From the NCBI GenBank assembly GCA_937141935.1, contig CAKZQS010000029.1, positions 1 through 64,000 on the forward strand: 64,000 nucleotides of DNA. Reading direction: 5' to 3'. The stretch is from an uncultured Ectothiorhodospiraceae bacterium. GTDB lineage: Bacteria > Pseudomonadota > Gammaproteobacteria > Nevskiales > Oceanococcaceae. Of the stretch, positions 1 to 1,878 are shown in pieces. The position numbers were made by a program, and so were the translations under genes. Position 1 is the stretch's first letter; every line of letters begins with the position of its first letter. The notes under the pieces were generated by a model that worked only from the letters and a program-made list of their open reading frames with translations, had not been told where the DNA came from and did no database searches.

Positions 1-1878
1 CAGGCACTTCACCAGCTCAACCAGCTCCTCTGCGTCCGCCGCATCCCTTTGTAGGGCCCAGTGAGCCGCAGAGGAAGTCGCGCGAAGAAACGGGTAGTTC
101 GATGAAAGTTCGGCTTTGAGCTGCTCCAGACTGCGCTCGCTCAAGGCATCTGAAGACAAGGTCAGCAACAGTTCCCGGGCGCTCTGCTCTCTTGCCTCAG
201 CCAGGCTGCGGACTGATTTGACCCGCATTTTCTTGCCGCCACTGTATTCATCAAAGCTGCAAACCCCCTCCACTACCAGCACACTGTCTTTGATCAACTT
301 GTCCCGATGCTCTTCATAGCTATCGCTGAACAGGGCCACCTCAATCCGTGCACTGCGATCATCGAGCTGCACAAAGGCCATGGTGGTGGAGATACTGCGC
401 TCGCCGGTGCCTTCGAGCTGGCGCTTGAAGGTCTCCAGTGGCGGGATGCTCAGCGGGTCACAATGACTGCGCCGAGCCGGCAGGTCACCGCCCAGGTCGC
501 GGCGGCGCTGTTTCAGATACGTGATTTCCTCAGAGTCATCGTCCGGCTTGTAGAACGGGGCCTCGGCAATCTGCTCGTCGGAGATCGGAATCTGAAAGCG
601 GTCGCGGAATTCCTTGAGCGCGGCTTCACCCATTTTTTTCTGCTGGTGGGTGATGTTCTGGCCCTCGCCAGCCTCACCCATGCCGTACCCCTTGACCGTT
701 TTGGCCAGAATCACGGTGGGCCGCCCATCAGCCTGGTTCACCGCCCGGTAATAGGCGGCATAAACCTTGTGCGGATCATGTCCGCCGCGGTTCAGCCGAG
801 CGATGTCTTCATCGGACATGGAAGCCACAAGTTTGGCTGTTTCAGGATACTTGCCGAAGAATTCATCCCGCGTGTAGCGACCACCCTTGGCCTTGTAAGC
901 CTGATATTCGCCATCCACGGTTTCATCCATCAGGCGTCGCAGCATGCCGTCGCCATCACGAGCAAGCAGGGCATCCCAGGCGGCACCCCAGATCACCTTG
1001 ATGACGTTCCAGCCGGCGCCGCGGAACACGCCCTCCAGCTCCTGGATGATCTTCGAATCACCGCGCACCGGCCCATCGAGCCGCTGCAGGTTGCAGTTGA
1101 CGACGAAGATCAGGTTGTCCAGCTTTTCGCGCGCGGCGATGTCGATGGCGCCCAGCGATTCGGGCTCGTCCATCTCGCCATCGCCGCAATAGCACCAGAC
1201 CTTGCGCTGCGCGCGGGTTTCCAGCTCGCGGTTGCCCAGGTACTTCATCAAGCGCGCCTGGTAGATGGCCATGATCGGCCCCAGGCCCATGCTGACGGTG
1301 GCGAACTGCCAGAAATCGGGCATCAGCCAGGGGTGCGGGTAGGAGGACAGCCCCGGGGCATTGGCCTCGGTGCGAAAACGGCGCAGCTGCTCCTCGCTGA
1401 TGCGGCCCTCCAGGTAGGCGCGCGCGTAAACGCCCGGCGCGCAGTGGCCCTGGATGTAGACCAGATCCGGGCCGTCCGCGTGCTCGGGGCCGCGGAAAAA
1501 GTGATTGAAACCCACGTCATAGAGCGTGGCGGCCGAGGCGAAGCTGGCGATATGCCCGCCCAGGCCCGAGTCGTTGCGGTTGGCGTTGACCACGGTGGCC
1601 ATCGCGTTCCAGCGGATCAGCGAGCGGATGCGCCATTCCAGCGCATGGTCGCCCGGCGCCGACTCCTCGGCATGCGCGGGGATGGTGTTGCAGTAGGCGG
1701 TATGCGGCCGGAAGGGAATATAGGCGCCCGAGCGGCGCGACTTCTCGATCAGCGTCTCGAGCAGGTAATGGGCCCGCTCGGGGCCCTCACGGGCGATGAC
1801 GGCCTCGAGGGCCTCCAGCCATTCCCGGGTCTCCTCGGGATCGACATCGGTCGGGGTCTGCGCGTCCGGCTCGGCCAT
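1..1878 (-). CDS. aceE: Chimeric reading frame: AceE N-terminal half joined to DnaE C-terminal end (partial at window edge)
   Basis: From the ATG at 1878, about 500 residues read as the homodimeric pyruvate dehydrogenase E1 component, which decarboxylates pyruvate and passes the acetyl group to the E2 lipoyl domain. The thiamine diphosphate motif GDGEMDEPES lies near residue 235 and VNCNLQRLDGPVRG near 260. At about 372-393 the frame passes ISTTMAFV, an AceE motif, and continues LDDRSARIEVALF, which is the OB-fold region near the C-terminus of DNA polymerase III alpha (DnaE); FDEYSGGKKMRV follows. The rest of AceE (roughly 390 residues) is absent. The frame is open with no stop to position 1, and only a short DnaE tail should lie beyond it. 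Hand counts show GC near 45-60% in many lines below 960 against about 70% above 1320. A working fused enzyme is unlikely; an assembly join or recombination at the short shared sequence is more probable. Confidence 0.85.
   Translation of the reverse strand, partial: MAEPDAQTPTDVDPEETREWLEALEAVIAREGPERAHYLLETLIEKSRRSGAYIPFRPHTAYCNTIPAHAEESAPGDHALEWRIRSLIRWNAMATVVNANRNDSGLGGHIASFASAATLYDVGFNHFFRGPEHADGPDLVYIQGHCAPGVYARAYLEGRISEEQLRRFRTEANAPGLSSYPHPWLMPDFWQFATVSMGLGPIMAIYQARLMKYLGNRELETRAQRKVWCYCGDGEMDEPESLGAIDIAAREKLDNLIFVVNCNLQRLDGPVRGDSKIIQELEGVFRGAGWNVIKVIWGAAWDALLARDGDGMLRRLMDETVDGEYQAYKAKGGRYTRDEFFGKYPETAKLVASMSDEDIARLNRGGHDPHKVYAAYYRAVNQADGRPTVILAKTVKGYGMGEAGEGQNITHQQKKMGEAALKEFRDRFQIPISDEQIAEAPFYKPDDDSEEITYLKQRRRDLGGDLPARRSHCDPLSIPPLETFKRQLEGTGERSISTTMAFVQLDDRSARIEVALFSDSYEEHRDKLIKDSVLVVEGVCSFDEYSGGKKMRVKSVRSLAEAREQSARELLLTLSSDALSERSLEQLKAELSSNYPFLRATSSAAHWALQRDAADAEELVELVKCL

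Follow-up and report, generated by a model that had tools for sequence, protein, structure and literature searches.

In a de Bruijn graph, sequence common to several species forms what part of one study calls 'chimeric nodes' (PMC8171044), and part of another describes chimeric contigs, or 'chimeric sequence contamination', in metagenome-assembled genomes (PMC10978663). The contig studied here, C29, resembles inter-species chimeric contigs as those parts of the two studies characterize them (PMC8171044; PMC10978663) in that it carries sequence of several species and its switches occur in conserved genes near contig ends. Its second join differs from what is described there: it connects aceE with dnaE, unrelated genes whose likeness extends to no more than about 20 coding bases, and it therefore looks like an in-frame gene fusion.

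The window, which is the whole 64,000-base stretch of DNA analyzed, comprises bases 1-64000 of C29 (119,373 bp) in assembly G000 (3,565,674 bases in 52 contigs, completeness 98.29, contamination 2.14), a genome that appears to be metagenome-derived. The minus-strand reading frame 1878..1(-) is open throughout, encodes 626 amino acids and continues past the window edge at base 1, and the contig physically ends about 365 bases beyond the aceE/dnaE junction. The original prediction had read a switch from AceE to DnaE in this frame, and profile searches confirmed it: the model for AceE, the homodimeric pyruvate dehydrogenase E1 (TIGR00759), matched residues 8-505 and the model for DNA polymerase III alpha (NF004226) matched residues 497-601. 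The AceE match extends over profile positions 2-498 of 885 and its score of 805.5 bits is below the cut-off of 859.9 for the full-length protein; about 387 profile positions are missing, in agreement with the predicted loss of about 390 residues. Residues 8-505 are thus AceE-like, but the match is composed of two different aceE genes. The DnaE match extends over profile positions 1002-1099 of 1146 at 46.4 bits (cut-off 1002). Compared with DnaE, the frame has the OB fold (residues 498-557, Pfam) and the tail alone; no polymerase domain was found in it by the Pfam and NCBIfam profile searches. Judged from these sequence comparisons, the tip of C29 very probably consists of pieces from three different bacteria strung together, as follows.

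1027..1878, minus strand: the 5' part of the aceE native to the host, about 284 codons (GC3 0.86-0.92; 76.8% DNA identity to G002; 89% amino acid identity to G001).
365..1026, minus strand: first foreign piece, an aceE segment from a different genus within the host's family (97.0% DNA identity to G002, likewise to G003).
365..384, minus strand: stretch of at most 20 bases possibly common to the aceE and dnaE parents (bounded by the limit of identity to G002 and the starts of the dnaE alignments).
1..384, minus strand: second foreign piece, a dnaE 3' part (OB fold and C-terminal region), Spongiibacteraceae-like (62-71% amino acid identity); it overlaps the possible shared stretch 365..384 and is cut by the contig end.
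2019-3335, minus strand: mnmE, named from sequence, which precedes aceE in the window.

The two aceE sources were distinguished by comparing the frame, in 30-residue blocks, with the aceE of nine relatives, three other genomes and contig C31. Genome G001 belongs to the host's genus; G002 and G003 belong to another genus of the host's family. The same-genus G001 was nearest or tied in seven of the eight blocks covering residues 31-270, and the 5' part was 89% identical to its product over 275 residues. Over the seven blocks covering residues 301-506, G002 and G003 were 97-100% identical in amino acids and G001 was 67-97% identical. The DNA changed accordingly: window positions 1833-1027 had 187 mismatches to G002 aceE (76.8% identity, and 76.5% in the case of G003), and positions 1026-365 had 20 mismatches in 662. 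GC3, calculated in 150-base blocks, held its high values down to position 979 and was 0.56-0.78 beyond. The join at 1027 begins in a conserved stretch of aceE, as judged from the comparison with G002. A two-part mosaic of AceE and DnaE had been predicted, which was correct as far as it went but missed this second breakpoint at about 1027; there are three sources.

Identity to G002 was uneven along the foreign aceE segment (98.0%, then 91.3% at 878-729, then 98.9%), so the source, on this pattern of identity, would not be G002 itself but a bacterium closely related to it, or several strains mixed. The dip at window 729-878 gives the impression of a contribution from more than one strain. We also considered whether the middle segment came from a second host paralogue of aceE and rejected this, the closest match being the 97.0% match in another genus.

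The join between aceE and dnaE could be narrowed from both sides. The agreement of G002 aceE with the window runs down to base 365, with the first departure at 364, and local DNA alignments to the dnaE of three relatives start at 384; the stretch shared by the two parents is therefore at most about 20 bases (384-365). These bases encode TMAFVQ plus two bases of the codon that follows, the peptide in the window being TMAFVQL. The 11 dnaE relatives, among which the parent is not included, had 14-17 of the 20 bases alike, with longest exact runs of 6-15 bases, and none of the 11 had all 20; their peptide at the join was TMAFV in seven and TMAFL in three. The predicted position of 372-393 was slightly off, the possible shared stretch lying further left, but a join does exist, and the predicted length of about 12 shared bases falls within the exact runs seen in the dnaE relatives. 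A 20-base overlap is what two neighbouring 21-mers share. It is possible that 365-384 is such a k-mer stretch shared by both parents, and a k of 21 for the assembler is a guess. The frame stays open across the join because TMAF, mostly TMAFV, is common to both proteins and the two genes read the matching DNA in a common phase; the open frame is thus no evidence of selection.

A scan of genome contigs for the dnaE tail yielded 11 loci. Ten of these were from Spongiibacter, Neomelitea and Zhongshania, all Spongiibacteraceae, at 62-71% amino acid identity, and the remaining one was from Parahaliea (Halieaceae) at 51%. The exact parent was not found among them, 62-71% being the best that the 11 loci offered. 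Contig C33 carries the host's own dnaE in full, which answers a check proposed in the original prediction. This dnaE was rejected as the source of the tail, which is 26% identical to the host DnaE over 90 residues.

The rest of the host aceE was located by a profile search of the assembly. Its 3' part lies at C31:48836-50518 (profile positions 323-884) and is 78% identical to the G001 product over 560 residues. After it, on the same strand, comes aceF, which was named from sequence and matches the DNA beside aceE in relatives. In G001, G002 and G003, mnmE, aceE and aceF are contiguous and the aceE frame is 900-909 amino acids long. The presence of mnmE-aceE on C29 and of aceE-aceF on C31 therefore shows that the host aceE is split between the two contigs. 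About 70 aceE codons (residues ~285-353) are on neither contig. The separate complete aceE that had been sought was found in part, namely its C-terminal portion 1.8 kb from the end of C31; the profile search did not find an uninterrupted copy in G000. The living cell nevertheless would have one whole aceE, the host's real gene presumably being intact.

Both halves of the host aceE run into foreign sequence near contig ends. On C31, the reading frame of aceE continues into an SppA fragment (TIGR00705, residues 3-107) 1.8 kb from the end. This fragment is 55% identical to the host sppA on C3, and in the 12 genomes searched no sppA exceeded 57% identity to it. A probe for sppA relatives at this join brought up no usable match. 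The fragment is followed by genes at 43-54% GC that, by eye, look like a methyltransferase and a glycosyltransferase. The region G000:C31:50443-52247 (L003 4444-6248), in which the aceE/SppA fusion is followed by a further drop in GC, is a second chimeric contig end.

Among 40 relatives, the aceE match reached residue 505-507 in 37, in frames of 896 to 1255 amino acids (that of G016 with one stop). The match in G007 ends at residue 477 (frame of 547 amino acids) and that in G013 at residue 207 (frame of 220 amino acids), and G021 had no aceE match. The alignments of five relatives (L022, L035, L039, L040 and L043) extend past the junction to residue 536 in frames of 911-1025 amino acids, which we take as alignment overrun. 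DnaE-tail matches, among those listed, were separate from aceE, in frames of 1167-1292 amino acids, and no match outside G000 spanned the join. The same fusion in related genomes, by which a fusion gene would be recognized, was thus found in none of the 40 relatives, and it was also found in none of eight Spongiibacteraceae and Parahaliea genomes, all eight of which have the two genes separate. A real aceE-dnaE fusion, being absent from every relative searched, was rejected.

The opposite end of C29 was also unusual. Its GC is 27-41% for 800 bases on a contig of about 70% GC, and it encodes the first 115 positions of the UvrC profile (low-GC uvrC start at G000:C29:119021-119359, in L177). The low GC of this uvrC start, together with a full uvrC on C14, indicates foreign DNA at the far end, so that foreign DNA is present at both ends of the contig. 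For each of the 52 contigs we compared the terminal 2.5 kb on both sides, which gave 104 ends, of which one reads N and was dropped. The last 500 bases fell below the first percentile of interior GC (0.611, from 619 overlapping interior windows with a mean of 0.698) at 16 of the 103 ends used; had ends and interiors been alike, about one such end would be expected. Among these 16 are the C29 and C31 ends already discussed. The check for RNA genes covered 17 end pieces, the 16 low-GC ends and one more, and placed rRNA or tRNA genes on two of the 16, leaving 14, which is not a count of chimeras, as some of the others stay low over all 2.5 kb and may be native islands. Three end open reading frames, from C22, C35 and C5, had no NCBIfam match.

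Taken together, the aceE/dnaE join is almost certainly an artefact of some kind and not a biological feature. Parts of C29 have their best matches in different organisms (host type, G002/G003 and Spongiibacteraceae-like), which is the pattern of a chimeric contig. The native sequence has been displaced: the 3' part of the host aceE and aceF are on C31, dnaE is complete on C33 and about 70 aceE codons are absent. A complete dnaE elsewhere and the missing part of aceE on another contig are what an artefact predicts, and this supports a chimera. The original prediction had offered either a chimera or a recombination that destroyed aceE; the former is strongly supported and the latter is not. Under recombination, the host would have acquired a segment of a relative's aceE and a foreign dnaE tail, with loss of its own gene. 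The frame is open across both joins, as recombination would have it, and exchange of gene segments between relatives is generally known to occur in nature. We nonetheless consider this origin highly improbable: both joins lie within about 1.03 kb of the contig end, on C31 the other half of the host aceE likewise enters a gene unrelated to it, foreign DNA is also present at the far end of C29, no relative among the 40 has the fusion, and the event would cost a bacterium that bears aceF its pyruvate dehydrogenase E1. That the mosaic as a whole is real in the host, with half a pyruvate dehydrogenase E1, partly a relative's, fused in frame to a foreign DNA polymerase OB-fold tail, is scarcely credible.

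The chimeric end of C29 is very likely a product of the assembler, and we infer that the joins were made with short k-mers. Our confidence stops short of that in an artefact as such because the exact overlap in the dnaE relatives is only 6-15 bases and because the chimera could have formed before assembly, during library PCR or multiple-displacement amplification. Such chimeras are generally known to arise at short shared stretches as well, they would yield the identical sequence, and the short exact overlaps count in their favor. An origin before assembly is still unlikely given that many contig ends look affected and that an assembly graph accounts better for two successive switches, both in conserved genes and both near a contig end. 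If the assembler was responsible, it would have worked on mixed-community reads with short identical stretches in conserved genes. The path would have exited the host aceE at about 1027, inside a conserved stretch, and followed for 0.66 kb the aceE of a relative belonging to a different genus. It would then have switched again within 365-384, where the relative's aceE resembles the dnaE of a third bacterium, and ended at base 1.

The apparent fusion of pyruvate dehydrogenase and DNA polymerase is very probably an assembly error and as such has no bearing on the biology of the organism. Where an open reading frame passes cleanly from one conserved gene into another, unrelated one close to the end of a contig, the cause can be faulty assembly, and such errors can look like genes because a short motif common to two proteins at the join keeps the coding phase. 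Claims of gene fusion or horizontal transfer from such genomes should exclude the last kilobases of each contig or be tested with reads.

Two further contig ends had fragments that bear on the same theme. C12:1-582 (L013) is an E1 fragment at a contig end that matches aceE profile positions 649-852, is 47% identical to the C31 aceE and scores slightly better to TIGR03186, 'AKGDH_not_PDH'. It is either a paralogue or a contaminant, and it was rejected as the paralogue behind the middle segment of the C29 frame; it is an aceE-type fragment from a different part of the protein. At G000:C4:285215-286369 (in L156), a 385-amino acid end frame crosses a GC step from about 0.40 to about 0.7, and its residues 46-212 match the fimbrial protein model TafC below the cut-off of that model; it is possibly another in-frame chimera.
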